Part shown: positions 1,068 through 51,149 of the stretch, piece after piece | Layout of the letters: every line of letters begins with the position of its first letter | Numbering within the stretch: the first letter of the stretch is position 1 | DNA from: Sulfuritalea sp. | GTDB taxonomy: Bacteria > Pseudomonadota > Gammaproteobacteria > Burkholderiales > Rhodocyclaceae | Direction: 5' to 3' | Assembly (NCBI RefSeq): GCF_017302275.1 | Contig: NZ_JAFLDR010000026.1 | Span: 1-58,150 of the forward strand | Length of the DNA: 58,150 bases | Program-made: the position numbers and the translations under genes | The notes under the pieces: generated by a model | Told to the model about the DNA's origin: nothing | What the model saw: only the letters and a program-made list of their open reading frames with translations | The model's database searches: none

Positions 1068-2444
1068 TCATGCCGACGCCCTCGGATCGAAGGCGTCGCG
1101 CACGGCGTCGGCGAACAGGTTGGCGGCCAGCACCAGGGCGAACATGAAGCTGAAGGCCGCCGCCAGCGACCACCAGACCATGGGTTCGCGCGCCAGTTCC
1201 ATGCGAGCCGTGTTGATCATGGTGCCGAAGGAAATCGTGCTCGGATCGACGCCGACGCCGACATAGGACAGCACGGCTTCGGCCAGCACCAGGCCGGAGA
1301 AATCCATGACCAGCGCGATCAGCACGATGTGCATCAGGTTGGGCAGGATGTGGCGGCGCATGATGGCGAAGCGCCCCACCCCGAAGGCCTGCGCCGCCTG
1401 GACGAATTCCAGTTCGCGCAGCTTCAGCGTCTCGCCGCGCAAGAGGCGCGCAACCCCGGTCCAACTGGTCATGCCGAGGATCAGGCACAGTGCCAGCAGG
1501 CGCGCATCGGCACGCTCGGCCGAGGTGGCGAACCATTCCGGGTGGGTGTCGATGATCACCTGCATCATCAGCACCGCCGCCGCGATCAGCAGGACGCCGG
1601 GGATGGAACTCAGCGTGGTGTAGAGGTACTGGATCACGTCGTCGACCCAACCGCCGACGTAGCCGGCGAGGATGCCGAGCAGCACGGCCAGCGGCAGCAT
1701 CACCAGCGTGGTCAGCGTGCCGATCAGGAGGCCGGTGCGGATGCTCTTGAGCGAGAGGTAGAGCACGTCCTGGCCGACCTTGTCGGTGCCGAAGACGTGG
1801 TAGCCGCCACCCAGTGAAATGGCGATGCCGAGCAGCAGCAGGATCGGCAGCAGGGTGAGAACCACGGGACGAATCGCCGTCCCGCCGGCGCCGACTTTCA
1901 GCATTTCGATCACTTCGACGCCGCGCAGCCGGCACCACGCGGCAACCAGCAGCAGCCAGACGACTAGCCCGCCGGCACAGCCGCGCGAGACGCGCACGGC
2001 GATGTCGAATTCGTGGCCGGAGAGATCCTTGCCCAGATGCGCGCCACCGTGCTTCAGGCGCGGAAACTCGCGCTGCGCCGAATCCGCCAGCGCCTCCTTG
2101 GAGTAAAGATGCGTCGCCAGCGGCGCCGAATAGGTCTTCTCGCCGCGCGACCGCATGCCCGCCAGCAGGGCATCGAGCGCCGAATGCACCTCCACGGCGT
2201 AACGCACCGGCTCGCCCGGTTTGACGTCGAGCCGCGCGCGGTAATGCAGCGAATCGAGCAGGCCGACCACGATGAAGGCGGCCAGCACCGTCGCCGCCGC
2301 CATCGCCACGGGGTCGCGCGCGACGCGGCCCCAGGCCGCGCGCAGTGCCTCCTGCCGCCGCGCCCAAAACGCCAGCGCGAAAATCGCCGCGAACAGCACG
2401 AACAGCAGCGCGTCCGACCAGAGCAATACGGGCTGGAAGCTCAC
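1068..2444 (-). CDS. ABC transporter permease, DppC/OppC-like with long N-terminal extension
   Basis: 458 residues. The C-terminal half is a BPD_transp_1 permease domain with an EAA-type loop (QAAQAFGVGRFAIMRRHILP) that should dock on the ATPase. The first 190 or so residues carry two or three membrane segments and a periplasmic stretch, making the protein much longer than an ordinary DppC (about 300). I chose the GTG at 2444 because GGAGGG lies just upstream; a TTG eight codons earlier is possible. Codons around 1875-1898 contain a copy of the dispersed 23-nt repeat, read here as KVGAGGTA between two membrane segments. It is the second permease of the operon; function assigned by family only. 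Confidence 0.9.
   Translation of the reverse strand: MSFQPVLLWSDALLFVLFAAIFALAFWARRQEALRAAWGRVARDPVAMAAATVLAAFIVVGLLDSLHYRARLDVKPGEPVRYAVEVHSALDALLAGMRSRGEKTYSAPLATHLYSKEALADSAQREFPRLKHGGAHLGKDLSGHEFDIAVRVSRGCAGGLVVWLLLVAAWCRLRGVEVIEMLKVGAGGTAIRPVVLTLLPILLLLGIAISLGGGYHVFGTDKVGQDVLYLSLKSIRTGLLIGTLTTLVMLPLAVLLGILAGYVGGWVDDVIQYLYTTLSSIPGVLLIAAAVLMMQVIIDTHPEWFATSAERADARLLALCLILGMTSWTGVARLLRGETLKLRELEFVQAAQAFGVGRFAIMRRHILPNLMHIVLIALVMDFSGLVLAEAVLSYVGVGVDPSTISFGTMINTARMELAREPMVWWSLAAAFSFMFALVLAANLFADAVRDAFDPRASA
1875..1898 (-). repeat. Dispersed 23-nt repeat, copy 1
   Basis: Reads AAAGTCGGCGCCGGCGGGAC followed by GGCG on the minus strand. It lies inside the DppC-like permease gene and is translated in frame as KVGAGGTA. 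One of nine copies found by eye in this window. Confidence 0.75.
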
Positions 2445-2521
2445 GCGCCCTCCGCCGGGCCGCCCCAAGGAGGGCGCATTGTTTCAACCGAAAGCCGCGC
2501 CAGCGGCTGCACCGTCGTTAT

Positions 2522-2540
2522 CCCCTTCCGTGGGAAGGGG
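2522..2540. repeat. GC-rich intergenic palindrome
   Basis: CCCCTTCC and GGAAGGGG arms around a 3-nt loop, in the gap between the two permease genes. Same class as the hairpin at 974-989. Confidence 0.55.
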
Positions 2541-2556
2541 GCTAGGGGGAAGGTCG

Positions 2557-3534
2557 TCATTGCAGCCTCACCCGCGGATCGGCCAGGGTGTAGGAAATGT
2601 CGGTCAGCAGCAGGCCGACGATGTAGAGCACCGAGCCGATGAAGACCATGGAGCGCACCACGGCGAAGTCCTGCGCGTTGATGGCGTCGATGGTGTAGCT
2701 GCCCAGGCCCGGGATGCCGAAGAAGGATTCGGTCAGCAGGCTGCCCATGAACAGCGTCGGGATCACCACCACCACGCCGGTCAGGATCGGGATCATGGCG
2801 TTGCGCAGCACGTGGCGGAACAGCACCACGCGTTCCGGCAGGCCCTTGGCGCGCGCGGTGCGCACGTAGTCGCGGGTGATCTCTTCGAGGAAGATGGTGC
2901 GATACCAGCGAGTTGATGCGCCGATGCCGCCGAAGACGCCGATGATCACCGGCAGGATGAGGAATTTCGCCGCGTCCAGCCCGCCGCCGTAGCCGGATAT
3001 GGGCGCGAGATGCCAGACCTTGGACACCAGCCACTGGCCGCCGATGATGTAGAACAGGCCGGAAATCGACATCATAGCCACGCACAGCACGACGCCGGCG
3101 AAATCCAGCGTCGTGGCGCGGAAGAAGACCAGCAGCAGGGCAAACGAGATCGCCACGAAAAGACCGAGGACGAAGGTCGGCACAGCGATGGCGAGGCTGG
3201 GCCCCATGCGCGTGGTGATTTCGCGCGCGATGTCGCGGCCGTCGTCGGCACGGCCGAAATCGCCGACGAACATGCGCACCGACTTGGCGAACAGGATGGT
3301 GTCGGTCACCGCCGCGCTGCCCCCGGCCTTGGCGTTCCACAGCAGGGGCTTGTCGTAGCCGCGCTCGGCCTTCCACTTCTCGATCGCCTCGGGCGTCACG
3401 CGTTTGACGCCGAGCTGCATGCGCGCCATGTCGTCCGGCGTATTGACCACGAAGAAAAGCGCGAAGGTGAGCAGGTTCACCCCGATCAGGATCGGGATCG
3501 CGTAAAGCAGGCGGCGGATGATGTAGGCGAGCAT
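2557..3534 (-). CDS. ABC transporter permease, DppB/OppB-like
   Basis: 325 residues. The N-terminus MLAYIIRRLLYAIPILIGV is the hallmark first membrane helix of DppB/OppB/YejB permeases; it is followed by a periplasmic segment and a five- or six-helix BPD_transp_1 domain. The EAA loop is TARAKGLPERVVLFRHVLRN, and the C-terminus keeps the LADPRVRL ending of the family. It forms the inner-membrane channel with the longer permease downstream. It starts only 4 bp after the stop of the YdjM-like gene, so the transporter is probably co-transcribed with the upstream membrane genes. Confidence 0.93.
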   Translation of the reverse strand: MLAYIIRRLLYAIPILIGVNLLTFALFFVVNTPDDMARMQLGVKRVTPEAIEKWKAERGYDKPLLWNAKAGGSAAVTDTILFAKSVRMFVGDFGRADDGRDIAREITTRMGPSLAIAVPTFVLGLFVAISFALLLVFFRATTLDFAGVVLCVAMMSISGLFYIIGGQWLVSKVWHLAPISGYGGGLDAAKFLILPVIIGVFGGIGASTRWYRTIFLEEITRDYVRTARAKGLPERVVLFRHVLRNAMIPILTGVVVVIPTLFMGSLLTESFFGIPGLGSYTIDAINAQDFAVVRSMVFIGSVLYIVGLLLTDISYTLADPRVRLQ

Positions 3535-3538
3535 CGAA

Positions 3539-4570
3539 CTAGCGGACGGCGGTCAGGTCGCGGCCCAGCAGCATGGCCAAAAAATCGCGTCGCATCGCGG
3601 GTGAGAATTCGTGGCGGCTGACGAACTCCGTCGCCGCGCCGGGACCGCGCCATTGCAGGCCCCAGATCGGCGCGATGACGGTAGGCTGCATCGCGTAGCG
3701 CGCGTCGCCGACGAAACCGGGATGCCGGCGGTCGAGCACCAGGAAGCCGTCGGAGAAGGCCCGGAAGCGCTCGATGTCGCCCAGGCGGCGCGCGTCGCCC
3801 GCCGCCACCGCCTGCGCCGCGGCCATGTCGAACAGCGGCGCCGATTCTCCCGGGTAGTGGCGCAGCGTCGGCCCGAGGTGGAAGGCATCGACCTGCACCC
3901 GGCCGTCATGCACGTACAGCGCGCGCCACAGCAGCAGGTTGGCCATCGACGGCTTGACCGAAAGTTGCGTCGCCTGGTGGCCGCGCGCCTGCACCAGGGC
4001 CAGCGCCGCCGCCTCGCCGCGCTGCTGCTGCATGAAACTGAATCCGAAATAGGCCATGCCCAGCGCGAGGCCCCAGGCCACCGCCTTCGATTTCGGATCG
4101 CGCAGGAAGAAATACAGCGGCAGCGCCAGCAGCAGCGTGAATACCGGATCGACCACGGCGATCAGGTTCCAAGCCTCTCGCCGCTGCAGCACGGGCAGCC
4201 AGAGGTAGGTGCCGTAACTGGTGCAGGCATCGAGCAGCGGATGCGCGAAGTAGGCGACGAAGCTGCAGAGGTAGAGCCGCCAGAAACCCATGCGTCGCCG
4301 CAGCAGCGGCCACAGCAACAGCGTCGCTACCAGCGCGCCCACCGGCACGAAGGCCAGCGCATGGGTGAAATGGCGGTGGTAGTCGAGCACCAGCAGCGCG
4401 TCGGCGCCGCTCTGGATCAGGGCATCCGCATCGGGCAGCACGCCCGCCGCGGCGCCGGCGATGGCGGCCGTACGCCGTAGCGCCAGCGCCGACTCCTGGC
4501 CACGGTGGCGAAGCGAAACGACGCCGCTGGCCAATGCGGCGCCCATGACGGCATGAGTCAGGGTATCCAT
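3539..4570 (-). CDS. Membrane-bound metal-dependent hydrolase, YdjM/DUF457 family
   Basis: 343 residues starting MDTLTHAVMG. Family features are the N-terminal THA motif, the PDAD motif, the HRHFTHA motif and HPLLDACTSYGTYLWLPV. These His/Asp residues are thought to bind metal at the membrane face. Several hydrophobic helices follow, then a soluble C-terminal domain of about 130 residues with no motif I recognise. An upstream extension of the frame lacks a matching start. It sits 19 bp after the next upstream gene and 4 bp before the permease gene, so it belongs to the same minus-strand run. Substrate unknown; E. coli YdjM is LexA-regulated, but no SOS box was seen here. Confidence 0.85.
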   Translation of the reverse strand: MDTLTHAVMGAALASGVVSLRHRGQESALALRRTAAIAGAAAGVLPDADALIQSGADALLVLDYHRHFTHALAFVPVGALVATLLLWPLLRRRMGFWRLYLCSFVAYFAHPLLDACTSYGTYLWLPVLQRREAWNLIAVVDPVFTLLLALPLYFFLRDPKSKAVAWGLALGMAYFGFSFMQQQRGEAAALALVQARGHQATQLSVKPSMANLLLWRALYVHDGRVQVDAFHLGPTLRHYPGESAPLFDMAAAQAVAAGDARRLGDIERFRAFSDGFLVLDRRHPGFVGDARYAMQPTVIAPIWGLQWRGPGAATEFVSRHEFSPAMRRDFLAMLLGRDLTAVR

Positions 4571-4589
4571 GCGCGGATGATAGAGCCTC

Positions 4590-5273
4590 TCAGGTCGAAT
4601 TTCCGCCGCCATCCGCAGGCGGTTTGCCGGCAAGACGGCCGAGCAGTCCCCTGGCCTTCTGGCGCGCGATGAATGCCTCGTTGCGCGGCCAGGCACCGGT
4701 GGTCCAGCGCGCACGGAGGGCGGCACCGGCGCCGCCGACCAGGGCCATCACCAGCAGCAGGACGATGAAAGGCGCGAGGCTGGCGACGACCAGCCATTCC
4801 GCGGCCTTCATCCATCGCGCCAGGCGCGGCGGTCCGCCCAGCGCCTTTTGCAGCAATGCGACGGTCGCGTAACAGACGAAAGCATCGACGACGAGGGCGC
4901 CGAAGCCGAAAGGTAGGCGGCAGGCCAGCCCGGAAACGTCGGCAGCCCCCGACAGCCAGGGCAGGGAAAAGCTGCCGGCACAGGCGCGCTCGCCGGCGCC
5001 GAAGGCGACCCAGTTGCCGATGGCCGCCAGGCCCGCCGCCGCCAGGACACCGAACAGGCCACCAGCCAGCGGCGCCTGCGGGCCGGCGATGAGTGCCGCG
5101 CCGCCTGCCGCGAAAATGCCGCCGGCGACGAACCCGATCCAGGGCGGACCGTTGATGTCCTCTTGCCGCAGCGGTCCGACGTCGAAAGCAGCCAGCATCG
5201 GCAGGATGCCGGCCGCGATCAGCAGCAGGCCGAGCAGATGCGCGGTGCCAGGCGTCAGTTGCTGCCGGTCCAT
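4590..5273 (-). CDS. Hypothetical integral membrane protein
   Basis: 227 residues from MDRQQLTPGTAHLLG. About five or six hydrophobic segments are visible (LLGLLLIAAGILPML, WIGFVAGGIFAAGGAAL, LFGVLAAAGLAAIGNWVA and two near the C-terminus around LVVDAFVCYATVALL and LVVASLAPFIVLLLVMALV). A short basic tail (RQKARGLLGRLAGKPP) probably faces the cytoplasm. Four residues are Cys, two of them in the central periplasmic loop. The frame is open 48 codons further upstream, but the Met at 5273 precedes the first membrane helix directly. I do not recognise the family. Confidence 0.7.
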   Translation of the reverse strand: MDRQQLTPGTAHLLGLLLIAAGILPMLAAFDVGPLRQEDINGPPWIGFVAGGIFAAGGAALIAGPQAPLAGGLFGVLAAAGLAAIGNWVAFGAGERACAGSFSLPWLSGAADVSGLACRLPFGFGALVVDAFVCYATVALLQKALGGPPRLARWMKAAEWLVVASLAPFIVLLLVMALVGGAGAALRARWTTGAWPRNEAFIARQKARGLLGRLAGKPPADGGGNST

Positions 5274-5326
5274 GATGTCGCCGCTTCGGCGCCGATCGCC
5301 TGCGCGCGCCGGGAATGCGTACGCGC

Positions 5327-5620
5327 CTACTTGAACTTGTAAAAGGCCTGGTTCAGCCAGGCGGCGACGTGTTCCTCGTCTTCCGGGAACCAACTGGCAT
5401 TGGTCTGCGTGCTGCATACGGCGACACGCTGCCGCAGCGCCGTCGCGCTGTTGATCAGGCGCGGCTTGCGCGTGTACATGCCGGAACCGTCACCGCCCAG
5501 CAGCTTGACGTGGCAGGCCACGCACTGCTTGTCGTGCAGCGGTTTGCCCAGTTTCGGGTCACCCGCGGCCTGTGCCGGGAGCGCGATCAGGATGCACAAC
5601 AGGGATAGCGTGTAACGCAT
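5327..5620 (-). CDS. Small periplasmic c-type cytochrome
   Basis: 97 residues: signal peptide MRYTLSLLCILIALPAQAA, then one haem-binding CVACH motif near residue 33. The likely distal Met ligand is in GSGMYTRKPR. The C-terminus is aromatic and basic. It is a single-haem protein, probably a soluble electron carrier in the periplasm. It is in the same orientation as the membrane proteins downstream. Its redox partner cannot be told from the sequence; none of the neighbours is an oxidoreductase that would pair with it obviously. Confidence 0.88.
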   Translation of the reverse strand: MRYTLSLLCILIALPAQAAGDPKLGKPLHDKQCVACHVKLLGGDGSGMYTRKPRLINSATALRQRVAVCSTQTNASWFPEDEEHVAAWLNQAFYKFK

Positions 5621-5651
5621 GGCATTGCTCCCGAAATTGCCGCTTGTTCGC

Positions 5652-5903
5652 CTATTGCAGGTAGCTGATCTCCATCTGCGAATCGAGCCCGGTCACCATG
5701 TCGAGGATTTCCTCGGTGAATTCCTCGTCCTCGTCGCTCCAGGTGGCGTCCGGCGCATTCGAGACCGTGACCAGCGGCGTGATGTCAAAATCGACGAAGC
5801 GATCGCCGACCTTGAGCACGAAAATGCCGGAGGAATGCTCGACCAGCTCCCAGTCGTCGGGAATTTCCAGTTCCGCATTGAGTTGCAGCGACAGCTTTTT
5901 CAT
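5652..5903 (-). CDS. Hypothetical small acidic protein
   Basis: 83 residues from MKKLSLQLNAELEIPDDWEL. The start at 5903 is supported by GGAG six bases upstream; the frame is open to 5936 but the upstream ATG lacks a site. The protein is strongly acidic (DEDEEFTEEILDM) with no signal peptide or membrane helix, so it should be cytoplasmic. Alternating polar and hydrophobic residues suggest a small beta-rich fold. Not recognised; probably lineage-restricted. Confidence 0.7.
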   Translation of the reverse strand: MKKLSLQLNAELEIPDDWELVEHSSGIFVLKVGDRFVDFDITPLVTVSNAPDATWSDEDEEFTEEILDMVTGLDSQMEISYLQ

Positions 5904-5995
5904 TTCGATCTCCGGCACAAGTAACAATACGCGCATCCTAAAGCATCGCGCCGCGACGCGATAGGATAACGAACCAACTTTCGACCGCCGCCGCC

Positions 5996-6925
5996 ATGAT
6001 CAACCCGCTCCTGCTGCTGGACAACGCTGCCGTGCGCCGCCACCTCTCGCTCGACGCCCTGCTGCCCGCCATCGCGCAGGCCCTGATGGACCTTTCCGCC
6101 GGGCGCGTGGTGCAGCCCATGCGCACCGTGCTGGAGCTTGCCGAACCGGGCAGCCTGCTCTTCGTCAAGCCGGCGCGCACCGCGGGCGCGCTGGCGACCA
6201 AGCTGATCACCCAGGTGCCGGGCAATCGCGCGCGCGGCCTGCCGACCATGATCGCCACCCTGATCCTTCTCGATCCGGCCACCGGCGTGCCGCTGGCGGT
6301 GATGGATGCGACCTGGCTGACCGAACTGCGCACCGCCGCCGTGTCGGCCGTGGCCACGCGCGCCTTGCGCGACGGCAGTCCTAAGCGTCTGGCCATCCTC
6401 GGCTCGGGCGCGCTGGCGCGCAGCCACGCGCTGGCGCTGAGCGCCGTCGTGCCGCTGGCCGACATCCGCCTCTGGAGCCCGACCCGCGCCCATGCCGAGC
6501 GCTGTGCCGCCGAGATCGGCGGCATTGCCTGCCCCGATGGCGAATCCGCGGTGCGCGACGCCGACCTCGTGGTCACCGTCACCAATTCCAGCACGCCGGT
6601 GCTGCGGGGCCGCTGGCTCAAGCCCGGCGCGCTGGTGCACGCGGTGGGCGCGCCACGCCCCACCTGGCGCGAACTGGACGACGAAGCGATGCGCAACTAC
6701 GTAATCGCCGACCATCGCCGCGCAGCGGACACCGAGTCCGGCGACGTGATCCTTTCTGGCGCAACCGTACAGTGCGAGATCGGCGAGGTCCTCGCCGGCA
6801 CGGTTCAGGTACCCGCTGGCACGACTGTGATCTTCAAGGCCCTGGGCCAGGCGGTGGAAGATGCCGTGGCGGCGCAACTGGTGTATGCCGCGGCGACCGG
6901 CAACGGGGCGCCGGCCAGGGCCTGA
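5996..6925 (+). CDS. Ornithine cyclodeaminase / mu-crystallin family protein
   Basis: 309 residues. It has the family's N-terminal substrate domain (GRVVQPMRTVL, then KLITQVPGNRARGLPT) and a Rossmann domain with GSGALARSHALAL near residues 137-149 for NAD(P). The arginine in TELRTAAVSAVATRAL is the usual substrate-binding signature. Members reduce or deaminate amino and imino acids (ornithine, alanine, delta-1-pyrroline carboxylates), so the exact substrate is open. It is divergent from the small acidic gene to its left and convergent with the gene to its right, so it is probably a single-gene unit. Confidence 0.88.
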   Translation: MINPLLLLDNAAVRRHLSLDALLPAIAQALMDLSAGRVVQPMRTVLELAEPGSLLFVKPARTAGALATKLITQVPGNRARGLPTMIATLILLDPATGVPLAVMDATWLTELRTAAVSAVATRALRDGSPKRLAILGSGALARSHALALSAVVPLADIRLWSPTRAHAERCAAEIGGIACPDGESAVRDADLVVTVTNSSTPVLRGRWLKPGALVHAVGAPRPTWRELDDEAMRNYVIADHRRAADTESGDVILSGATVQCEIGEVLAGTVQVPAGTTVIFKALGQAVEDAVAAQLVYAAATGNGAPARA

Positions 6926-6935
6926 CGCCCAGCGC

Positions 6936-7703: not shown

Positions 7704-7771
7704 GTCGCTAGGATACCGTCCTCGCGTCCCGCGGGGACATAATTGGGGTTCCCAAAACCAAAACCCGCATT

Positions 7772-8227: not shown

Positions 8228-8240
8228 AGCGGCAACGATG

Positions 8241-8265
8241 CGCCGTGTCGCCGGCGCCGACTCTT
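8241..8265 (-). repeat. Dispersed 23-nt repeat, copy 2
   Basis: On the minus strand it reads AAGAGTCGGCGCCGGCGACA followed by CGGCG. It is intergenic, between the DUF188 and S4-domain genes. Confidence 0.8.
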
Positions 8266-8343
8266 GATCTGGCACATGGCACGGGGCGAGCGGGGCGAAA
8301 ACCCCGGCGACTATAATCGCGGCTTCCCCGCCCATTCCCCTCC

Positions 8344-9476: not shown

Positions 9477-9514
9477 CAGACTTCGGCGTCGAACGCGACG
9501 GGACCAACCAGAAC

Positions 9515-9542: not shown

Positions 9543-9560
9543 ACTGCAACGCAATCCGGT

Positions 9561-10298: not shown

Positions 10299-10311
10299 TG
10301 CTTTCTCCCTT

Positions 10312-13205: not shown

Positions 13206-14480
13206 GTGAGCAGCCGCCTCGTCACACGCAGCCGCCTGCTGCTCTGGGGCGGCTGCCTGGCCCTGGCCCTGGCCCTGCCGCTGATATTCAGGAGCAGCTT
13301 CCTGATCTCGCTGCTGTGCCAGATGGGCATCATGGTGGTGTTCTCGCTGTCCTACAACATGCTGCTCGGGCAAACCGGCCTGCTGTCCTTCGGCCACGCC
13401 GTGTATTACGGTCTCGGCGCCTTCGCCACGATGCACACGCTCAATGCCCTCGGCAAGGACGGCGGCCCGCTGGTGGTGGCGCTGCTGCCGGCGGTCGGCG
13501 CCTGCGCCGGGCTGGCGGGCGGCGTGGTGCTGGGCTACGTCACCACGCGCAAGGCCGGCACCACCTTCGCCATGATCACGCTCGGCATCGGCGAACTGGT
13601 GGCGGCCTGCTCGTTGATGTTCCCCGGCGTGTTCGGCGGCGAGGGCGGCGTCTCGGGCAATCGCGTGATCGGCAAGGAGAGCTTTCTAGGCTTCAACTGG
13701 GGGCCACAGGTCGAGATGTACGGGCTGATCGTAATGTGGGCCTTCGTGTGCACCGTCGCCATGTTCGCTTTGACGCAAACGCCGCTGGGGCGCATGGCCA
13801 ATGCCGTGCGCGACAACCCGGAGCGCGCCGAATTCGTCGGCTACGACACCGAGCGCGTGCGCCTGCTGATGGTGATCCTGTCCGGAATGTTCGCGGGCGC
13901 CGCCGGCGGCCTCACGGCGCTCAACTACGAAATCGTCACCGCCGAAACGCTCAATGCCCACACCTCGGGCGTGGTGCTGCTGATGACTTTCGTCGGCGGC
14001 ATCGGCTTCTTCTACGGACCGATCATCGGTGCGATCCTGATCACCGTGATGCAGATCGTGGTCGGCGGCATGACGCACGCGTGGCTGCTTTATTTCGGCC
14101 TGTTCTTCCTTTTCATGGTGCTCAAGGCGCCCGGCGGCATCGCCAGCCTGATCGCCGTGCAGCGCAACCTGTGGAACGCCGGCCTGTTCGGCCGCATGCT
14201 GCCGCATTACCTGGCCATGATGCTGCCGGTCCTGATCCTGCTGGCCGGACTGGTCGGCGTGGTGGAACTGAGCTATGCCCTGCTCGCCGGTGACGGAGTC
14301 GGCGCTGGCGACACGGCTACCCGGGTACTGGGCATGCAGTTGAAACTCGGTACGCCGGCGCCCTGGGTGACGGCTCTGGCGGTGACCGGCGCCGGCATGA
14401 TCCTGACGCGCTGGATCGGCGGTCGCGCCGGCACGGCATGGAATTCCACGCTGGCGACGCTGCATGGGGACAAGGCATGA
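13206..14480 (+). CDS. livM: ABC transporter permease, LivM family
   Basis: 424 residues. The LivM core is clear (SLNM-like block SYNMLLGQTGLLSFGHAVYYG, then AVRDNPERAEFVGYDTERV). I chose the GTG at 13206, with GGGGAGAG upstream; the open frame reaches back to 13101 but its extra residues are encoded across the palindrome. After the core an extra tail of about 80 residues adds a membrane helix near position 345 and another near the end. This tail contains a copy of the dispersed repeat (14297-14317), read as VGAGDTA. The stop overlaps the livG-like start by 4 bases. Confidence 0.92.
   Translation: MSSRLVTRSRLLLWGGCLALALALPLIFRSSFLISLLCQMGIMVVFSLSYNMLLGQTGLLSFGHAVYYGLGAFATMHTLNALGKDGGPLVVALLPAVGACAGLAGGVVLGYVTTRKAGTTFAMITLGIGELVAACSLMFPGVFGGEGGVSGNRVIGKESFLGFNWGPQVEMYGLIVMWAFVCTVAMFALTQTPLGRMANAVRDNPERAEFVGYDTERVRLLMVILSGMFAGAAGGLTALNYEIVTAETLNAHTSGVVLLMTFVGGIGFFYGPIIGAILITVMQIVVGGMTHAWLLYFGLFFLFMVLKAPGGIASLIAVQRNLWNAGLFGRMLPHYLAMMLPVLILLAGLVGVVELSYALLAGDGVGAGDTATRVLGMQLKLGTPAPWVTALAVTGAGMILTRWIGGRAGTAWNSTLATLHGDKA
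14297..14317 (+). repeat. Dispersed 23-nt repeat, copy 3
   Basis: AGTCGGCGCTGGCGACACGG then C, inside the livM-like gene and translated in frame as VGAGDTA in the C-terminal extension. Confidence 0.75.
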
Positions 14481-20774: not shown

Positions 20775-20800
20775 TCGCCGTATCGCCAGCGCCGACTTTC
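20775..20800 (-). repeat. Dispersed 23-nt repeat, copy 4
   Basis: Minus-strand reading GAAAGTCGGCGCTGGCGATA then CGGCGA; intergenic, between the thioesterase and MDR oxidoreductase genes. Confidence 0.8.
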
Positions 20801-20825: not shown

Positions 20826-21821
20826 ATGGAAAAGAACCAGAGAATCGTCCTCGCCAGGCGCCCCACCGCCTGGGTCGAGGAAAGCAACTTCCGCTTCGAG
20901 GACAGCGACATCCCGCAGCCCGGCGACAACCAGGTCCTGGTGAAGAACCACTGGCTCTCGCTCGACCCCTACATGCGCGGCCGCATGTCCGACGTCAAGT
21001 CCTATGCCACGCCGGTGCAGATCGGCGAGGTCATGGTCGGCGGCTGTGCCGGCGAAGTAGTGGCGTCGAAGCATCCGAAATTCGCGCCCGGCGACAAGGT
21101 GGTCGGCGCCCTGGGCTGGCAGCTTTACGGCGTCGCCGACGGCAACGCGCTGCAGAAGGTCGATGCTTCGATGATCCCGCTCTCCGCCTACCTCGGCTCC
21201 GTCGGCATGCCCGGCGTCACCGCCTGGGTCGGACTCAACGACATCTGCGCACCCAAGGAAGGCGAAACCGTGGTGGTCACCGCCGCCTCGGGCGCCGTCG
21301 GCAGCGTGGTCGGCCAGCTGGCGAAGCTGAAGGGCGCGCGCGCGGTGGGTATCGCCGGCGGCGCCGAGAAGTGCCGCTACGTGGTCGAGGAACTCGGCTT
21401 CGACGCCTGCATCGACTACAAGGCCGGCAACCTCCGTGGCGACCTCAAGACGGCGACGCCCAAGGGCATCGACTGCCTGTTCGAGAACGTCGGCGGCGAA
21501 ATCTTCGACACCCTGCTCGGGCGCATGAACCCCTTCGCCCGCATCGCCGTCTGCGGCCTCATCGCACAGTACAACTCCGCCCCCTACCCGATGCAGAACA
21601 TCGGCTCGGTGCTGATCAACCGGATCAGGATGCAGGGTTTCATCGTTTCGGACGACATGAGCCGCTGGCCGCCGGCATTGAAGGAGCTCGGCATGCTGGT
21701 CGCCACCGGCAAGCTCAAGTACCGCGAGACCGTGGCCGAAGGACTGGCCGCTGCGCCGACCGCCTTCATCAGCCTGTTGAAGGGCGGCAACTTCGGCAAG
21801 CAACTGGTGAAACTCGTCTGA
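20826..21821 (+). CDS. MDR-family NADP-dependent oxidoreductase, CurA-like
   Basis: 331 residues. The N-terminal oxidoreductase domain has LDPYMRGRMSD, typical of the leukotriene B4 dehydrogenase/CurA group, and a Rossmann domain with AASGAVGSVVGQLAK near 153. There are no zinc ligands, as expected. These enzymes reduce the C=C bond of conjugated enones or enoyl esters with NADPH. The downstream kinase gene starts 2 bp after the stop. The substrate in this pathway is not known. Confidence 0.91.
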   Translation: MEKNQRIVLARRPTAWVEESNFRFEDSDIPQPGDNQVLVKNHWLSLDPYMRGRMSDVKSYATPVQIGEVMVGGCAGEVVASKHPKFAPGDKVVGALGWQLYGVADGNALQKVDASMIPLSAYLGSVGMPGVTAWVGLNDICAPKEGETVVVTAASGAVGSVVGQLAKLKGARAVGIAGGAEKCRYVVEELGFDACIDYKAGNLRGDLKTATPKGIDCLFENVGGEIFDTLLGRMNPFARIAVCGLIAQYNSAPYPMQNIGSVLINRIRMQGFIVSDDMSRWPPALKELGMLVATGKLKYRETVAEGLAAAPTAFISLLKGGNFGKQLVKLV

Positions 21822-25881: not shown

Positions 25882-25908
25882 TCGCCGTGCCGCCAGCGCC
25901 GACTCTTG
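25882..25908 (-). repeat. Dispersed 23-nt repeat, copy 5
   Basis: Minus-strand reading AAGAGTCGGCGCTGGCGGCA then CGGCGAA. It lies between the acyl-CoA synthetase and the broken toxin gene, in the opposite orientation to copy 6 about 1 kb away. Confidence 0.8.
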
Positions 25909-26850: not shown

Positions 26851-26880
26851 GGAAAGTCGGCGCTGGCGGTACGGCGATAC
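26851..26880 (+). repeat. Dispersed 23-nt repeat, copy 6
   Basis: Plus-strand reading GGAAAGTCGGCGCTGGCGGT then ACGGCGATAC, in the degraded region downstream of the HigBA remnant. Confidence 0.8.
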
Positions 26881-29212: not shown

Positions 29213-30121
29213 ATGCCCGCCCGCCGTAAGTTCCTCGGCAGCGCCCTGGCGCTGCCGATCATGGCCGTGATGCCGTCGCCCGCCGGCGCCGCCGCAACCC
29301 CTGCCACGCGCGAGTTGCCCGGCGACCGCCGGCCGCTGCCGGTGATCGGGCTGGGCACCTGGCGCAGCTTCGATGTCGGCGCCGACGCCACGGCGCGCGC
29401 CGGACTCGGCCGCCTGCTGGGCCGCTTTGCCGAACTCGGCGGCACGGTGGTGGACAGCAGCCCGATGTACGGCAGCGCGGAAGCGGTGCTCGGCGACCTG
29501 GCCGCCGAGCGCGGCCTGCGCCCGCGCCTCTTCCTCGCCACCAAAGTGTGGACGCAGGGACGCCAGGCCGGCATCGCGCAGATGGAGGAATCGCTGCGCC
29601 GCCTGCGCGCGCCGGGTATCGAGTTGATGCAGGTCCACAACCTGACGGATTGGAAGCAGCACCTGCCGACCCTGCGCGCTTGGAAGGCCGCCGGCCGCAT
29701 CCGCTACCTCGGCATCAGCCACTACAGCAGCGGCGCCTACGCGGAGGTCGCGCAAGTCCTGCGCAGCGAGGCGCTGGACTTCCTCCAGATCAACTATTCG
29801 CTGGCGGAGCAGGATTCCGCGCGGCGCCTGCTGCCGCTGGCGGCGGAACGCGGCGTGGCGGTGATCGCCAACCGGCCCTTCGCCGAAGGCGCGCTGTTCG
29901 ACACGGTCAAGGGCAAGCCCCTGCCCGCCGCCGCCGCCGACCACGGCTGCCGCTCCTGGGCGCAACTGTTCCTGCGCTGGATCCTGGCGCATCCGGCGGT
30001 GACCTGCACGATTCCGGCGAGCACCCGCCTCGACCACCTGGAAGACAACATGGCGGCCGGCCTCGGGCCCCTGCCGGATTTCAGGGAGCAGAAGGCGCTG
30101 GCGCGCATGGCGGGGTTCTGA
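29213..30121 (+). CDS. Tat-exported aldo/keto reductase
   Basis: 302 residues from MPARRKFLGSALALP. RRKFLG is a twin-arginine motif, and the signal ends near SPAGAA, so the protein should be folded in the cytoplasm and exported. The AKR fold shows GLGTWRSFD, the catalytic DSSPMYGSAE (Asp and Tyr), the Lys in ATKVW and His in MQVHNLTDW. GGAG before the ATG at 29213 decides the start. A periplasmic AKR is unusual because NADPH is not available there; the physiological reductant is open. Confidence 0.88.
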   Translation: MPARRKFLGSALALPIMAVMPSPAGAAATPATRELPGDRRPLPVIGLGTWRSFDVGADATARAGLGRLLGRFAELGGTVVDSSPMYGSAEAVLGDLAAERGLRPRLFLATKVWTQGRQAGIAQMEESLRRLRAPGIELMQVHNLTDWKQHLPTLRAWKAAGRIRYLGISHYSSGAYAEVAQVLRSEALDFLQINYSLAEQDSARRLLPLAAERGVAVIANRPFAEGALFDTVKGKPLPAAAADHGCRSWAQLFLRWILAHPAVTCTIPASTRLDHLEDNMAAGLGPLPDFREQKALARMAGF

Positions 30122-34010: not shown

Positions 34011-34033
34011 AAAGTCGGCGCCGGCGGTACGGC
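34010..34033 (+). repeat. Dispersed 23-nt repeat, copy 7
   Basis: AAAAGTCGGCGCCGGCGGTA then CGGC. It begins on the last base of the amidotransferase stop codon and ends three bases before the yajQ stop, filling the whole convergent gap. Confidence 0.8.
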
Positions 34034-34035: not shown

Positions 34036-34530
34036 TCAGTCGCGGAAATTGCCGTACTGCAGCGGGAAGTCGGTGATCGACTTTTTCACCAGCGCGATGG
34101 CGTCCTGCAGCAGGTCGCGCTTGGCGCCGGTGACGCGCACGGCATCGCCCTGGATGCTGGCCTGTACCTTGATCTTGCTGTCCTTGATCAGCTTGACGAT
34201 CTGCTTGGCCAGTTCCTGCTCGATGCCGACCTTGATCGTCAGCACCTGCTTCGACTTGTTGCCGCCGACCGATTGCACGGGGCCGTGATCGAGGCGCTTG
34301 GTGCTTTCGCGTTCCTTCTTTTCCATCTCCGGAAACAGGATGTCCTTGATCTGGCCGAGCTGGAATTCGGAATCACCGTGCAGGGTGATGAGCTTGTCCT
34401 TCTCGTTAAGCTCGACGCGCGCCGAGGTGCCCTTGAAGTCATAGCGGTTGCCGATGTGGCGCCCGGCGACGTCGACCGCGTTCTTCAGCGCCACGATATC
34501 CGCTTCGGAGGTGATGTCGAATGAAGGCAT
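34036..34530 (-). CDS. yajQ: YajQ-family cyclic-di-GMP/nucleotide-binding protein
   Basis: 164 residues, the normal length. MPSFDITSEADIVALKNAVD, NRYDFKGTSARVELNE and FPLQYGNFRD are the conserved blocks. YajQ binds nucleotides (c-di-GMP in Xanthomonas and Pseudomonas) and acts as a cytoplasmic effector. It is followed at its 3' end by a repeat copy and preceded by the ppnP gene 15 bases upstream on the same strand. Confidence 0.95.
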   Translation of the reverse strand: MPSFDITSEADIVALKNAVDVAGRHIGNRYDFKGTSARVELNEKDKLITLHGDSEFQLGQIKDILFPEMEKKERESTKRLDHGPVQSVGGNKSKQVLTIKVGIEQELAKQIVKLIKDSKIKVQASIQGDAVRVTGAKRDLLQDAIALVKKSITDFPLQYGNFRD

Positions 34531-41804: not shown

Positions 41805-43588
41805 TCATTCACCGCCGGCGCTTCCTTCACGACGCGGGTCCGCCACGCCGATCCAACCGTTCGCGTGCCGCAGGATCACGTGCAGGCCGCTGGTCATGTC
41901 GCCGCGCTGCAACTCGTGCCCGCGCCGTTCCAGTTCCTGCGCCACGACCTCCGGAAAGCGACTTCGCTCGATCTCCGTCGCACCATTGCGGTTGCCGACG
42001 TGCGGCATGGCAATGGCGGTTACCGGATCGAGGCCGCCGTCCAGGACCGAAACAATGGTGCGCGCCACATAGTTGATGATGCGACTGCCGCCTGGCGAAC
42101 CGAGCACGGCATGCAAACGCCCGCCGGCATCGAAAACGAAGGTAGGCGCCATCGACGATAGCGGGCGCTTGCCCGGTTCAAGGCGATTGGCGACCTTCCT
42201 TCCATCGCGCCCGGCAGCGAGGGAAAAATCGGTCAACTGGTTATTCAGCAAGTAGCCATCGACCTGGATACGGCTGCCGAATGCGCTTTCGATCGAACTG
42301 GTGAGCGCCACGGCATTGCCGGCCTGGTCGACGATCGAAAGGTGTGTGGTCGAGGGAAGTTCGGGCGCGTCGTCGTCCGCCTGCGCGCGATGGGTCGGTA
42401 GTTCCCCGGGCTTGGCGATTCCCATGCTGCGTCGGGTATCCAGAAGACGTGACCGTTGCCGCAGATAGCGTGAGTCGACCAATGCCCGCTGCGGAACCTC
42501 GATGTAATCGGGGTCGGCAAGGTAGCGGGCGCGATCAGCGTAGGCCAGTCGGCCAGCCTCGGCGAAGTAGTGCGCCGCATCGGCCGCGGCGGTCTGGGCG
42601 GAGGACAAGCCGGTGTGTTCCAGAATGCCGAGTATCTGCAGGACCCCGATTCCACCCGCCGACGGGGGCGGCATGCCGCAGACGCGCCATTGACGATAGG
42701 GACTACATACCGGCTCGCGTTCTATTGGCCGGTAGTCACGAAGGTCCTCCGCCCGCAGCGATCCGCCACGATCGGCGACCACGGCCACCATGCGCTCCGC
42801 GGCCTGCCCGCGGTGCAAGGCTTCGGCCCCACCGGTCGCGATTCGTCGCAGGGTCGTGGCGAGCTCCAGATTGCACAGGGTGTCGCCAGCTTGCAGCGGC
42901 TCGCCACTTTCCCTGAAATACAGTGCTCGTGCGGCGGGGTCGCTGCGTAGCAGCGGATCGTCGCGCAACAGGAGGTGCAGGCGCGGCGAGACGGCAAAGC
43001 AGTTTTCCGCCAGCCGGATCGCCGGTCGGAACAACCTTTCCCAGCGCAATTTGCCGTGCTGCCGGTGGGCCTGGTCGAGCATGGCGACCAGACCGGGCGC
43101 CCCGACTGCCTTTCCAGTTGCCAGCAATTCGGAATAGCCGGCCATGCTCCCATCGGCGCGCAGGGCAAAGTCGGCGCTGGCGGCACGGGGAGCTGCTTCG
43201 CGTCCATCCCAGGCCGACACCCGCCTGCGCGCCGCGTCCCAGTGCAGCAGGAAGCCGCCGCCGCCGATGCCGGAAGATTGCGGTTCAACCAGATTCAGGA
43301 CCCATTGCGCGGCGATCGCCGCGTCAAGCGCGTTGCCACCGAGACGCAGGATTTCCAGCGCAGCGTCCGTCGCATTGACGTTCGCCGTAACCGCCATGAA
43401 CTTGCCACCGACGACAGGCGGTTGCTGCGCATAGCCGCTGGATGCTTCGGGCTGTGCCGTTTGCGGCCATGCCGGCGTGGCGAGAAAGATCGCAGTGAGC
43501 AGGATGCCCAGGCTGACGCCCAAGGATGATCCACGCCAGGAAAAACGGGCAGCCCGCAGGCTGCCCGTTTGATAGAACATGTTGCGGA

Positions 43589-43592: not shown

Positions 43593-45682
<2,090 letters not shown>

Positions 45683-45988
45683 ACACCCCCCTATTTAATT
45701 GATGAACTCAGCCGAGAATTTTATCACGTGATTCCCAGCGAGGAACTGCAGCCTTGAGAACTAAAATGGTTCGGGCATGATAACTCGACCCGTCGCGCCA
45801 AGGGTTCCGGGGCCTTTCGTCTCCCTGCACCACCTAACTCCAATGGAACCCCCGGTGACCAGATTCTCCTAATGCACGAATCCGCCTGATGGATGCTTAG
45901 CGCCCCATTGACGGTTATAGTGAAATTTTAGTATCGGTCAAATCGCATCGGATCATTCATCTCACGCAAGCGAAAGGAACGCCAGATC
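45683..45988. other. 306-bp regulatory gap between divergent hppA and pfp
   Basis: Contains AT-rich promoter-like DNA near hppA (TGATAAAATTCTCGG on the minus strand) and TTGACG near 45908 followed by TAGTAT about 15 bases on, before pfp. No gene was recognised. Confidence 0.45.
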
Positions 45989-47209
45989 ATGCCGCAGGGA
46001 AAAGTATTGGTCGCGCAGGGAGGGGGGCCCACCGCCGTCATCAATCAATCGATGGCTGGAGTTGTCCTCGAAGCCCGCAAATTCCGCAACGTCGAACGGG
46101 TCTATGGCGCCTATCACGGGGTGTCCGGCATCCTCAAGGAGGAGTTCCTCGACCTCACTCAGGAAACCAGCCATAACATCGAAATGGTGGCCTCCACCCC
46201 CTCTTCGGCATTGGGCTCGACGCGCGACAAACCCGACCTCAAGTACTGCCACGAGATTTTCGAAGTACTCCGGGCGCACGGGATCGGCTATTTTTTCTAC
46301 ATCGGCGGCAACGACTCTTCGGACACGGTCCGCATCGTCAGCGAAGAAGCCCGGCGCGCCAACTATTCACTGCGCTGCATCCATATCCCGAAGACCATCG
46401 ACAACGACCTGGTCGGCAATGACCACACGCCGGGATTCCCGTCGGCGGCCCGCTTTGTCGCCCAGGCCTTCATGGGCGCGAATCTCGACAACGCCGCCCT
46501 TCCCGGCGTCTATCTGGCGGTGGTGATGGGACGGCATGCCGGCTTTCTGACCGCCGCCTCCGCGCTAGGCAAGAAATTCCCGGATGACGGCCCGCATCTG
46601 ATCTACCTGCCGGAGCGCGTCTTCAACGTCGGGAAGTTCCTCAGCGACGTGAAAGCGACATATGACAAATTCGGCCGCTGCGTGATAGCCGCCTCGGAAG
46701 GCATCCATGATGAACAGGGAACGCCGATCATCACGCAGCTGAGCAGCCACGTCGAGCGGGATGCCCATGGCAACATCCAACTCTCCGGCACCGGAGCGCT
46801 GGCCGACCTGCTCTGCGACGAGATCAAGAGCAAGCTCGGCATCAAGCGGGTACGGGGCGACACCTTCGGCTATCTGCAGCGCTCGTTCATGGGCTGCGTA
46901 TCCGATGTCGATCAGCGCGAGGCGCGCGAAGTCGGCGAAAAAGCCGTCCAATACGCCATGTGGGGCGAACGCGACGGCTCGGTGGCGATCAGGCGAACCG
47001 GCTTCTATTCGGTCGATTACCAGTTGGTGCCGCTTGAAACCGTGGCCGGGAAAACCCGAACCATGGAAGACGAATTCATCGCCGCCAGCGGCACCGACGT
47101 CACCGACTCCTTCCGCCTCTATCTGCGCCCCCTGCTCGGTTCGGGCATGCCCGACGCGTACCGGTTGCGGCTCAACACGGTCGACAAGATTCTGCGACCG
47201 GAAAAATAG
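45989..47209 (+). CDS. pfp: Pyrophosphate-type 6-phosphofructokinase
   Basis: 406 residues of the PFK family. The phosphoryl-donor motif is GGNDSSDT (106-113) with Asp at the position that favours PPi over ATP, and PKTIDNDL holds the PPi-type Lys (near 143). Asp of TIDND is the catalytic base. It reversibly phosphorylates fructose 6-phosphate. GGND, with Asn in place of the first Asp, is a variation on GGDD. hppA is divergent at 306 bp, and the ATP-type PFK gene converges with it. Confidence 0.88.
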   Translation: MPQGKVLVAQGGGPTAVINQSMAGVVLEARKFRNVERVYGAYHGVSGILKEEFLDLTQETSHNIEMVASTPSSALGSTRDKPDLKYCHEIFEVLRAHGIGYFFYIGGNDSSDTVRIVSEEARRANYSLRCIHIPKTIDNDLVGNDHTPGFPSAARFVAQAFMGANLDNAALPGVYLAVVMGRHAGFLTAASALGKKFPDDGPHLIYLPERVFNVGKFLSDVKATYDKFGRCVIAASEGIHDEQGTPIITQLSSHVERDAHGNIQLSGTGALADLLCDEIKSKLGIKRVRGDTFGYLQRSFMGCVSDVDQREAREVGEKAVQYAMWGERDGSVAIRRTGFYSVDYQLVPLETVAGKTRTMEDEFIAASGTDVTDSFRLYLRPLLGSGMPDAYRLRLNTVDKILRPEK

Positions 47210-47254
47210 AACCGTCAGGAAAGAGCGATTGATTCCGGGCCCGATGGCCCGCTA

Positions 47255-48364
47255 TCAATCGCCGAAACAGATCCCCAGGTCCCTGCCGGTCTGTACCGTA
47301 TCGCTGTCCAGGGGCACACCTTTCATCCGGCCGGCAACCTCTTCCAGCGCCACGTAGTTCACGTTGGGAAAGCCCAGTGCAACCATGATCCCGGATTGCC
47401 CCTCATCGAGCGCCCGCACGGCCGCGGTACCGAAGCGCATGGCGGCCAAACGGTCGAATGAAGTGGGGCTGCCGCCACGCAACAGATGGCCGAGGACCAC
47501 CACTCGAACATCCTTCCCGCTGCGGTCGGCAAGAACCCTGGCGATGCGGTCGCCGACTCCGCCCAGCCGCTCAGCGTGACCGATCTCCGCCGGGGCGAGA
47601 ATTTCCCGATGTCCGTGTATCGGTTCGGCGCCTTCGGCGACCACCACAAGCGAGTACATGCGCCCTTCGCCGTCGCGCGCACCGATCTTCGCCGCGACCT
47701 TGTCCACGTCGAAAGGAATCTCGGGAATCAACACGGCGTGCGCGCCGCCGGAAATCCCGGCATGCAAGGCGATCCATCCAGCATAGCGGCCCATGACCTC
47801 GACCACCATTACGCGCTGATGGCTTTCGGCGGTGCTATGCAGGCGGTCAAGACACTCGGTGGCAAAGGCAACGGCCGAATCGAAGCCGAAGGTGGTGAAG
47901 GTCTTGTCCAAGTCATTGTCGATGGTCTTGGGCACACCCACCACCCGCAAGCCCTTCTGGTGCAATGCATGGGCTATGGTGAGTGATCCGTCGCCACCGA
48001 TCGAAATCAGCGCATCGATTTCCTTGCGGGCAAAGAATTCCAGGATCTCATTTGTGCGATCCGTGTCTCGCATCGTCCCGTCCGGCATTTTCAGCGGGAA
48101 ATGCAGGGGGTTGCCCTTGTTGGTGGTGCCGAGGATGGTCCCACCCAAGTGAGCTATGCCGCGGACGCTATCCCGCGTGAGGCGCACCACTCCCCCGTCG
48201 GGATAGCGCTCCGGAAACAGGATGCCATTGAATCCATCGTGGATGCCGTAACATTCCCAGCCCCGATTTGCCGCAGCAATGGCCGCGGCGCGAATGACGG
48301 CATTCAGCCCGGGGGCGTCGCCGCCGCCTGTGCATACTGCGATGCGTCGGATATGGCTGGTCAT
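47255..48364 (-). CDS. ATP-type 6-phosphofructokinase
   Basis: 369 residues. IGGDGSLTIA (122-131) has Gly after GGD, as in ATP-dependent PFK; PKTIDNDLDKT retains a Lys typical of PPi enzymes and of group III ATP enzymes. CTGGGDAPGLNAVIRA is the ATP-loop at the N-terminus. It most likely uses ATP. It converges with the PPi-type gene 45 bases away and is 37 bases downstream of adk on the same strand. Confidence 0.88.
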   Translation of the reverse strand: MTSHIRRIAVCTGGGDAPGLNAVIRAAAIAAANRGWECYGIHDGFNGILFPERYPDGGVVRLTRDSVRGIAHLGGTILGTTNKGNPLHFPLKMPDGTMRDTDRTNEILEFFARKEIDALISIGGDGSLTIAHALHQKGLRVVGVPKTIDNDLDKTFTTFGFDSAVAFATECLDRLHSTAESHQRVMVVEVMGRYAGWIALHAGISGGAHAVLIPEIPFDVDKVAAKIGARDGEGRMYSLVVVAEGAEPIHGHREILAPAEIGHAERLGGVGDRIARVLADRSGKDVRVVVLGHLLRGGSPTSFDRLAAMRFGTAAVRALDEGQSGIMVALGFPNVNYVALEEVAGRMKGVPLDSDTVQTGRDLGICFGD

Positions 48365-48401
48365 GGATACCTCCGCAATTGAATGGATTCTTCAGGATCG
48401 A

Positions 48402-49079
<678 letters not shown>

Positions 49080-49124
49080 CTATATGTTTTAGCAGTGTTT
49101 TTATAACTTTTCCATTGCCAAAAC

Positions 49125-49901
49125 TTACTCTGAATCTTTCGCTGCGTCAAACAATCGGCGAACCCGCTCAAGGTCCTCGGGCGTATCGACGCCCGCTGCC
49201 GGGGCACGATCGACGCCGACTACCTGAATCGGATAGCCGTGCCAAAGCACGCGCAATTGTTCGAGCGATTCGCAGCGTTCCAGCGGCGACACCGCGAGTT
49301 GCCCATAGCGGCGCAGGAAGCTTACGCGATAGGCATACAAGCCGACATGGCGCTGCGCTGGCAGGTTGGCGGGCAACAGTTCTGGCTTCACGGCCAACCG
49401 GTCCCTGTCCCATGGAATCGGCGCACGGCTAAAGTACAGAGCGCGCCCACGCGCATCGCAGACCACCTTGACCACGTTCGGATTGAAGTAGTCCTCCATC
49501 ACGGTCAATGGATGGCAAGCCGTTGCCATCACGGCATCAGGATCGTCAAGCAACGCGCCAGCGACCGCTTCGATCAAGGCAGGGTCCAGCAACGGTTCGT
49601 CACCCTGAACATTGACCACGACATCTGCATCACCCCACCCGAGTTGCCCGGCTACTTCGGCTATTCGATCGGTTCCACTGGGATGATCGGCCCGGGTCAT
49701 GACGACCTCGTAACCGTGCTGACGCACGACATCGGCAATGCGCTGGTCATCGGTAGCAACCCATACACCAAGCGCCGCCGCGCGACATGCCGCCGCGGCA
49801 ACGCGCACAATCATCGGCCGACCTGCAATGTCGGCCAACGGCTTTCCAGGCAACCGCGAAGACGCAAACCGGGCCGGGATGACGATGCGAAAGCCGGGCA
49901 T
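49125..49901 (-). CDS. kdsB: 3-deoxy-manno-octulosonate cytidylyltransferase
   Basis: 258 residues. [20 protein letters not shown] is the CTP-binding signature; [12 protein letters not shown] and the VNPxxVKVV-type block ([10 protein letters not shown]) are present. It activates Kdo as CMP-Kdo for lipopolysaccharide. It lies 62 bases from ycaR and 69 bases from adk, in the usual betaproteobacterial order. Confidence 0.95.
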
Positions 49902-49963
49902 GACGGCGACTCTGTCGCGTCAAACGCCCGAGCCGGCAGGCGCGGGACGGTGACCAGAATCCA

Positions 49964-50140
49964 TCAAACCTCTTCCGGTCCGAGTTGGCGCGCTTCGTCT
50001 TCCAGCATCACGGGTATGTCGTCGACGACCGGATAGGCCAGGCGACAGCCCTTGCAGACAAGCTCGGCGGCTGGCTTGCGATTCTCCAATGGCCCCTTGC
50101 AGACGGGACATACGAGTATTTCAAGCAGACGAACATCCAT
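49964..50140 (-). CDS. ycaR: Trm112-family protein YcaR
   Basis: 58 residues from [24 protein letters not shown] near residue 11 and CKGC near 31 form a zinc-knuckle pair typical of Trm112. In proteobacteria its role is unclear (an adaptor for methyltransferases in eukaryotes). The gene lies between lpxK, which it overlaps, and kdsB. Confidence 0.93.
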
Positions 50141-51149
50141 TGAGCTTCTCCAGGACAAATTCAGCAAGATCCGGGCTGACTTCCGCCGCCACGGGCAGGA
50201 CCCAGACCGGCAGCGGCAGGGAAAGACGCGCCAATTTTACGGCATCCTTTTCCGTCGTAAGCAGAACACCGCCGGCGAAAGCGAGTTCGTCGACACCATA
50301 TTGGTAATGATCGGGAAAGGCGTGCTCGACGACATCGAGTCCCATCGCGCGCAGGGTGTCGAAAAACCGCTGCGGCGCACCGATTCCCGCCACCGCATGC
50401 AATTCCGCGCCCGCCAGATCGGCCGCATCGCAGGTCGTTCGCGGGTCGTTGAGGCGGGAAAAATATCTGCCCTGCAATCGCATCGAAAACACCGGACGTC
50501 CGAGAGTCGGCGCTGGCGACACGGCGTTTCCGTTCAGCACCAGACCATCGATCCGCGCCAGGCGCGTCAGTGGCTCGCGTAACGGTCCCGCCGGCAGGCA
50601 CCAGCCGTTCATGACACCACGCTCGTCGAAGACGGCCAGTTCAAGATCGCGCTTCAAGCGGTAATGTTGCAATCCGTCATCGCAAAGAACCACGTCGCAA
50701 TCAGGATGCGCGGCAAGGAGCGCGATCGCCGCCGCCGTGCGATCCCGCCCGACAAATACCGGGCAGCCTGTGCTGCGAGCCAGCATCACGGGTTCGTCGC
50801 CGACCACGGCCGGATCGCTGCCGGCCGTCACCGCGGCGACCCGCCGTGTGGTGCCGCGATAGCCCCGACTGACTATCCCGGGACATCGGCCCCGAGCTCG
50901 CAACGCCGATGCAAGATGAATCACCAGCGGCGTCTTGCCGCTGCCGCCCACTGTGAGGTTGCCGATCACCACTACCGGTACCGACACACCTCGACTGGCG
51001 ATCAGGCCGATGCGATACGCGACCTGGCGCAGGGCGACCAAGGCGCGAAAAACCAGCGATATGGGAAACAGCAGGCAGGCCAGCGGGCCGCGCTGCCGCC
51101 AGACGGCGATCAGCCCTCCAGGCTCAGCGCTGCGCCTGTTGCGTGGCAA
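50121..51149 (-). CDS. lpxK: Tetraacyldisaccharide 4'-kinase
   Basis: 342 residues if the TTG at 51149 is the start; no ATG or GTG is at hand, and a CTG at 51113 (330 residues) follows the best GGAGG. Walker A is [27 protein letters not shown] and the C-terminal TTEKDAVKL are conserved. It phosphorylates lipid A disaccharide at the 4' position. A dispersed repeat (50503-50526) lies inside, translated in antisense as SPAPTL. It overlaps exbD and ycaR. Confidence 0.92.
50503..50526 (+). repeat. Dispersed 23-nt repeat, copy 9
   Basis: GAGAGTCGGCGCTGGCGACA then CGGC, inside lpxK but on the non-coding strand, in a variable region of the protein. Confidence 0.75.

Follow-up and report, generated by a model that had tools for sequence, protein, structure and literature searches.

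In the papers cited here, uptake sequences are known from the Neisseriaceae and the Pasteurellaceae. The neisserial DNA uptake sequences (DUS), with ComP as receptor, are described in the sections of Treangen et al. drawn on here (PMC2397512) and, for their dialects, in those of Frye et al. (PMC3630211): they occur in hundreds to thousands of copies, in both orientations, within and between genes, are conserved above their flanks, form clade dialects that share a core, and are scarce in acquired DNA. The uptake signal sequences (USS) of the Pasteurellaceae have a long extended motif, a genome-wide spread and dialects, with ComN/PpdA as predicted receptor and minor pilins as the class to which the receptor probably belongs (parts of PMC12616744 used here), and are biased towards gene ends (likewise, PMC2346458). 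Here we describe a motif of about 25 bp that shares many of these traits, though not the gene-end bias, in a stretch of 58,150 nucleotides of Sulfuritalea sp. (Rhodocyclaceae; contig NZ_JAFLDR010000026.1 of assembly GCF_017302275.1), which as a whole is called the window. We give a probability of about one half to the reading that the motif serves self-recognition in DNA uptake and works like the neisserial DUS or the pasteurellacean USS.

The source assembly, of a freshwater bacterium, comprises 88 contigs and 4.41 Mb, the window lying on contig 19. It contains 796 copies of the 20-mer AGTCGGCGCYGGCGNNACGG at up to two mismatches, 406 on the plus and 390 on the minus strand, against 14 matches of the reversed motif. 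The full motif, derived from 81 sites of a complete relative (G002) and 45 sites of the source genome, is asymmetric (AARAGTCGGCGCYGGCGRNACGGCGA) and longer than the 21 to 23 bp given in a preliminary description of the window. Its information is confined to positions from about -2 to +23, with background beyond, and the bounds are sharp; the same sites show no inverted repeat or palindrome, no conserved flank and no A/T-rich flanking segments. The mismatch counts over 22 bp are bimodal (21, 12, 6 and 5 sites with zero to three mismatches, then background, in 200 kb of G002). An unbiased test for over-represented k-mers in 400 kb of G002 ranked the motif first (the 12-mer AGTCGGCGCTGG, 57 occurrences against 0.73 expected), and it was not seen when the same test was applied to 60 kb each of three other genera of the family.

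The window was searched with the 21-bp consensus of the preliminary description, allowing up to three mismatches. Twelve sites were found, eight exact, three with one mismatch and one with three, compared to 0.13 on average, and never more than 2, in 100 shuffles that preserve the dinucleotides:

1877..1897, minus strand: motif copy with one mismatch, sense in an ATP-binding cassette (ABC) permease gene (BPD_transp_1), read KVGAGGTA
4475..4495, minus strand: motif copy with one mismatch, sense in a YdjM-family gene, read ESALALRR
8243..8263, minus strand: exact motif copy, taken as intergenic; the overlying open frame has no Pfam match
14296..14316, plus strand: exact motif copy, sense in a LivM-type permease gene (BPD_transp_2), read VGAGDTA
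20778..20798, minus strand: exact motif copy, taken as intergenic; adjoins an oxidoreductase gene (ADH_N_2) starting at 20826
25885..25905, minus strand: exact motif copy, taken as intergenic; 47 bp past an AMP-binding enzyme gene (end 25838)
26854..26874, plus strand: exact motif copy, taken as intergenic; the overlying open frame has no Pfam match
29373..29393, plus strand: weak match with three mismatches, sense in an aldo/keto-reductase gene
34012..34032, plus strand: exact motif copy between a GATase-domain gene (end 34010) and a DUF520 gene (34036-34530, minus strand)
43168..43188, plus strand: motif copy without mismatch over 21 bp, antisense in a gamma-glutamyltranspeptidase gene
50504..50524, plus strand: exact motif copy, antisense in lpxK
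54228..54248, plus strand: motif copy with one mismatch, sense in an Fe superoxide dismutase gene, read KVGGGGTA

The nine dispersed copies of the preliminary description are all present, one to three bases away from where it had placed them. Its list was not complete, since the sites at 4475 and 54228 and the weak match at 29373, which may be a chance match or a decayed copy, had been overlooked; and the copy near 43167, which it listed as imperfect, matches the whole 21-mer and deviates only downstream. The coding contexts that it proposed (the ABC permease at 1877, the LivM-type permease at 14296 and lpxK, antisense, at 50504) hold. To these we add the antisense site in the gamma-glutamyltranspeptidase gene and the three sense sites at 4475, 54228 and, weakly, 29373. 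Several reading frames are indeed used, and the occurrence of sense, antisense and intergenic sites, together with a conservation above that of the flanks (see below), supports the earlier proposal of conservation at the level of the DNA. A composition or codon-usage artefact, in line with a motif as G+C-rich as its genome, is refuted by the counts in the window (12 against 0.13) and in the genome (796 against 14), and genera of similar G+C content are at background only. The repeat is real, ordered, conserved at the DNA level and very probably not mobile.

On the chromosome of G002 the motif is spread evenly. The 186 sites in 895 kb (0.208 per kb) have a dispersion index of 0.81 over 44 full 20-kb bins, and in 400 contiguous kb their spacing is slightly more even than chance (coefficient of variation 0.77, random 0.82-1.21). 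Neighbouring sites share their orientation in 48 of 89 cases, and an arrangement in strand blocks is ruled out by 36 plus versus 45 minus sites. The strand-bias check that had been proposed revealed no association of orientation with GC skew (Fisher p 0.18, 186 sites) and hence no replication-strand bias. This bears on a Chi-like signal for recombination or nuclease control that would promote repair of the cell's own DNA. Such a signal would share with Chi and KOPS-type (FtsK-orienting polar sequence) motifs the over-representation of a short DNA word, phages included. Chi sites are, however, typically biased to the leading strand and known Chi sequences are far shorter than about 25 bp, whereas the motif is not oriented with replication, and we consider this explanation improbable.

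According to a simple, purpose-made gene finder, 121 of the sites in G002 are coding, 60 intergenic and 5 overlapping; since a fraction of 0.872 of the sequence is coding, the 65 of 186 sites outside the purely coding class are an excess (p 9e-15). The coding sites are divided into 57 sense and 64 antisense, with unequal use of the reading frames (those read KVGAGGTA, AVSPAPT or RRxASADF are preferred). A promoter or regulator site is ruled out, as the intergenic sites occur in every gene arrangement, and so are terminators formed by close inverted pairs, as 400 kb contain no such pair at a distance below some 250 bp. Two of the 20-kb bins lack any site. The one at 1.94 Mb is a conjugative element with matches to TraH, TraC/TraG, TrbI and a coupling protein; in the one at 0.5 Mb, each of four tested proteins has either a metabolic role or no assigned function. 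In the conjugative element (G002:C1:1940001-1960000, L456) an OLD-like TOPRIM ATPase adjoins a UvrD-type helicase, which recalls a Gabija-like defence pair.

The way in which copies are gained and lost was followed in site alignments of two regions, that of the window, compared across 8 genomes, and another, compared across 21, which gave 846 pairs of site and genome. A pair was taken as well aligned if both 40-bp flanks were at least 75% identical; this holds for 282 pairs, which cover 56 distinct query sites and are not independent, intergenic sites being less decidable. The motif is present in 202 of them, partial without a gap in 21 and absent without a gap in 18, while 37 have small gaps and 4 have gaps of at least 15 bp. 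A clean 25-bp insertion or empty site was found in none of the 282. In 218 ungapped pairs the mismatch per site averages 0.146 for the flanks but 0.075 for the motif. Gain and loss are of the substitution type: between G005 and G014, for instance, an ungapped absent site differs at eight scored positions between flanks that are 90 and 93% identical, and the superoxide dismutase site at 54228 aligns without a gap to the four PDB relatives shown, none of which has these residues. In the LivM alignment the motif is found in all seven genus members that were aligned, and the outgroup G033 has a gap of two residues.

These alignments speak to the suggestion of the preliminary description that the motif is a mobile short repeat, such as a repetitive extragenic palindrome (REP) or a miniature inverted-repeat transposable element. 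With REP sequences and their associated tyrosine transposases (RAYT), and with other mobile repeats, the motif shares a short sequence at high copy number; moreover, variable loops and intergenic regions of the relatives hold other inserted repeats, and a gap of 20-30 bp lies near the site in 7 of the 846 pairs. Each of these seven has at least one poorly aligned flank, and in the clearest case (G018 versus G014) realignment splits the gap into several pieces within a variable intergenic stretch. Lacking a palindrome, a conserved flank and an insertion signature in the well-aligned pairs, with partial ungapped states instead, an ungapped superoxide dismutase site, and dialect changes that fall inside the word, the motif is very unlikely to have spread as a mobile repeat. 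Other inserted repeats, which encode stretches such as VVSLSNHGRG...PFDKLRANG and RSGIPG and resemble well-known dispersed repeats, were seen in the orthologous loops of 1877 and 4475 (L186, L180, L177 and L171).

One species has lost most of its copies. G017 (99% complete) has 92 degraded copies on many contigs, of which 9, 24 and 59 carry zero, one and two mismatches. Contamination is ruled out by this spread and degradation. A concatenated tree of 27 genomes places G017 inside a clade of 18 genomes (99/100) within the motif-rich genus; the finer branching is unsettled, but the nesting rules out that G017 is the oldest branch, for which a single-gene tree is weak. When 30 of the G017 sites were tested, 13 could be aligned to relatives, and 10 of these 13 coincide with the motif there (7 of 9 once loci of the relatives that had been chosen for carrying the motif are excluded). 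Because of this coincidence, most copies in G017 are taken to have decayed in place. Low copy numbers are also found in G021 (217) and G025 (270).

All 31 genomes of the Sulfuritalea genus (g1) contain the motif in 92-814 copies, against 5-10 in six other genera of the family. A wider sample of 395 genomes from 68 genera, with at least 60 copies taken as a high count, refutes a restriction to one genus: high counts occur in 58 genomes and 8 genera, i.e. seven beyond g1, and the other 337 genomes have at most 42 copies. High counts were found in the own genus (23 of 23 genomes), g43 (18 of 19, the exception G293 having 3 copies), g88 (9 of 9), g70 (4 of 4), g32, g62 and g69 (1 of 1 each) and g47 (1 of 2, with 71 copies). 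In stretches of G032 (L233-L235) another strongly repeated word (AGGGATTCGCTTTCG, GTTCGGGGGT) was observed in the genus of that genome.

The form of the word differs between genera, as read from 20-kb samples that are small (20-46 kb per genus). The sites of g62, g32, g70 and g88 are close to the window consensus. In g43 the ending ACGGCA is found in 9 of 11 sites, and in g69 all three real sites have GTCGACGC, a fourth match being background (the word in the 20-kb sample is AAAAGTCGACGCTGG). The genus g34 is barely above the control when scored with the window motif, and has a form of its own, AAAAGTC-AGTCCC-(6)-ACGGCG, at four sites per 20 kb. In a held-out 10 kb this form recurs twice (2 and 5 mismatches; none in the reversed control), and it has no match in samples of six other genera. 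A looser pattern of the ends only is less specific (27 matches against 12 in the control, 400 kb of G002). Going by the sampled sequences, one dialect alters a central base and another replaces the whole centre, with both ends kept.

We infer that a predicted surface or pilus-associated protein would bind the word of about 25 bp when it occurs on free DNA. The cell would then preferentially take up DNA from its own lineage and recombine it into the chromosome. Alleles with a better motif copy would thereby be over-transmitted, and this over-transmission would give rise to hundreds of copies, and keep them, wherever the core genome tolerates them and whichever way they point. Such biased uptake and recombination would be expected to produce substitution-type gain, copies that are kept better than their flanks, dialects between clades and decay in single lineages. 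The other two readings of the preliminary description were an uptake-type signal and a protein-binding site; the dialects, the even spread, the lack of strand bias and the decay in place favour the former, and the missing ComEA speaks against it.

The genes for the machinery are only in part present: ComEC and GspH/FimT-type pilins were each detected in 30 of the 31 genomes of the genus and PilP in 29. Several observations weigh against uptake. ComEA was not found with PF12836 in 28 genomes of the genus, where the matches lie in frames of at least 550 aa, save three weak short-frame matches in G017, one of which adjoins a pilin gene. Nor was it found with TIGR00426 in 10 genomes, nine of which gave sub-threshold matches in frames of 795-940 aa and one none. 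Judging from their length, the long-frame helix-hairpin-helix matches are probably Tex. No receptor candidate was found to track the motif, as the pilus and ComEC genes are also present in G017; with ComEC, PilP and GspH retained there, competence genes are ruled out as the factor that G017 lost. On the chromosome of G002, the 186 sites have no bias towards gene ends, unlike those of the Pasteurellaceae, and inverted site pairs less than 250 bp apart are absent in 400 kb. In a hypervariable permease loop the outgroup G033 has a 10-residue gap at the motif, which by itself could be read as an insertion. ComP was not found by name in the genus, in which no search aimed at ComP was made. Since one defining feature, a complete transformation apparatus that includes ComEA, was not found, the motif is not filed as a member of the DUS or USS, and uptake would require a ComEA-free route or an unrecognised substitute for ComEA. 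In one outgroup genus (G034) a ComEA match is above the cut-off.

A further point against uptake comes from phages, since a pure uptake model does not predict copies in their genomes. At least 120 stretches of viral contigs (IMG/VR) carry exact copies, in 77 clusters among the matches listed, and copies also lie within phage genes, among them those for an anti-repressor, a tail chaperone and a putative late activator. The phage nature of seven of these loci is supported by 15 of 19 proteins that match phage families (portal, head, terminase, tail and others). Extra sites have a density of 0.057 per kb on the phage contigs, which were chosen for one site, against 0.208 per kb in the host (G002). 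On the phage contigs L310 and L370, copies of opposite orientation are 4,652 bp apart, and the L310 pair brackets portal and head genes. The viral contig L328:885-2239 contains five copies that all point the same way, with a period of 316 bp for the first four, and this array is probably a repeated protein domain.

Phage copies would be expected if the cell interior selects for the motif, as in the main rival explanation. In this explanation, a DNA-binding protein that acts inside the cell and is specific to the lineage (associated with the nucleoid, organising the chromosome or marking it as self) would bind the sites throughout the genome, and direct selection would keep each copy. The conservation at the DNA level, the occurrence in both orientations, the even spread and the failure to find ComEA in the genus fit this explanation as well, and the dialects could mirror a changing binding protein. 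It does not sit easily with some 700-800 sites of about 25 bp that are kept near-perfect despite the cost to protein sequences and without a domain, strand or promoter pattern, nor with a motif centre that is replaced wholesale between genera or with a 20-kb stretch of conjugative element that is free of sites. We know of no candidate intracellular protein with such a site set, and regard this explanation as possible but doubtful.

Compared with the neisserial DUS, the motif has a different sequence and is longer (about 25 bp against 10-12 bp). The density of neisserial DUS is about one per kb; here there is one site per approximately 5 kb, close inverted pairs were not seen and ComEA was not found. 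From the pasteurellacean USS it differs in having no A/T-rich flanking segments and no gene-end bias, and in belonging to another family; the likeness of AAAGTCGGCG to AAGTGCGGT that emerged in this comparison is probably due to chance. No earlier report of such a sequence in the family, or of this particular word, was found among open-licence PMC papers. Somewhat more tentatively than uptake as such, we propose that the motif may represent a third, independently evolved family of uptake sequences in the Rhodocyclaceae of lakes, groundwater and sludge, with a word of about 25 bp, genus dialects that keep the ends and swap the centre, a ComEA-free route and natural losses in single species.

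If the motif were an intracellular binding site instead, both its length and its abundance would be unusual. If it is an uptake sequence, the Rhodocyclaceae would provide an independent replicate for studying the origin, the upkeep and the receptor of uptake sequences, in free-living environmental bacteria. Species such as G017, in which the copies have decayed in place, would then be natural losses, and comparison with their relatives could point to the cognate gene.

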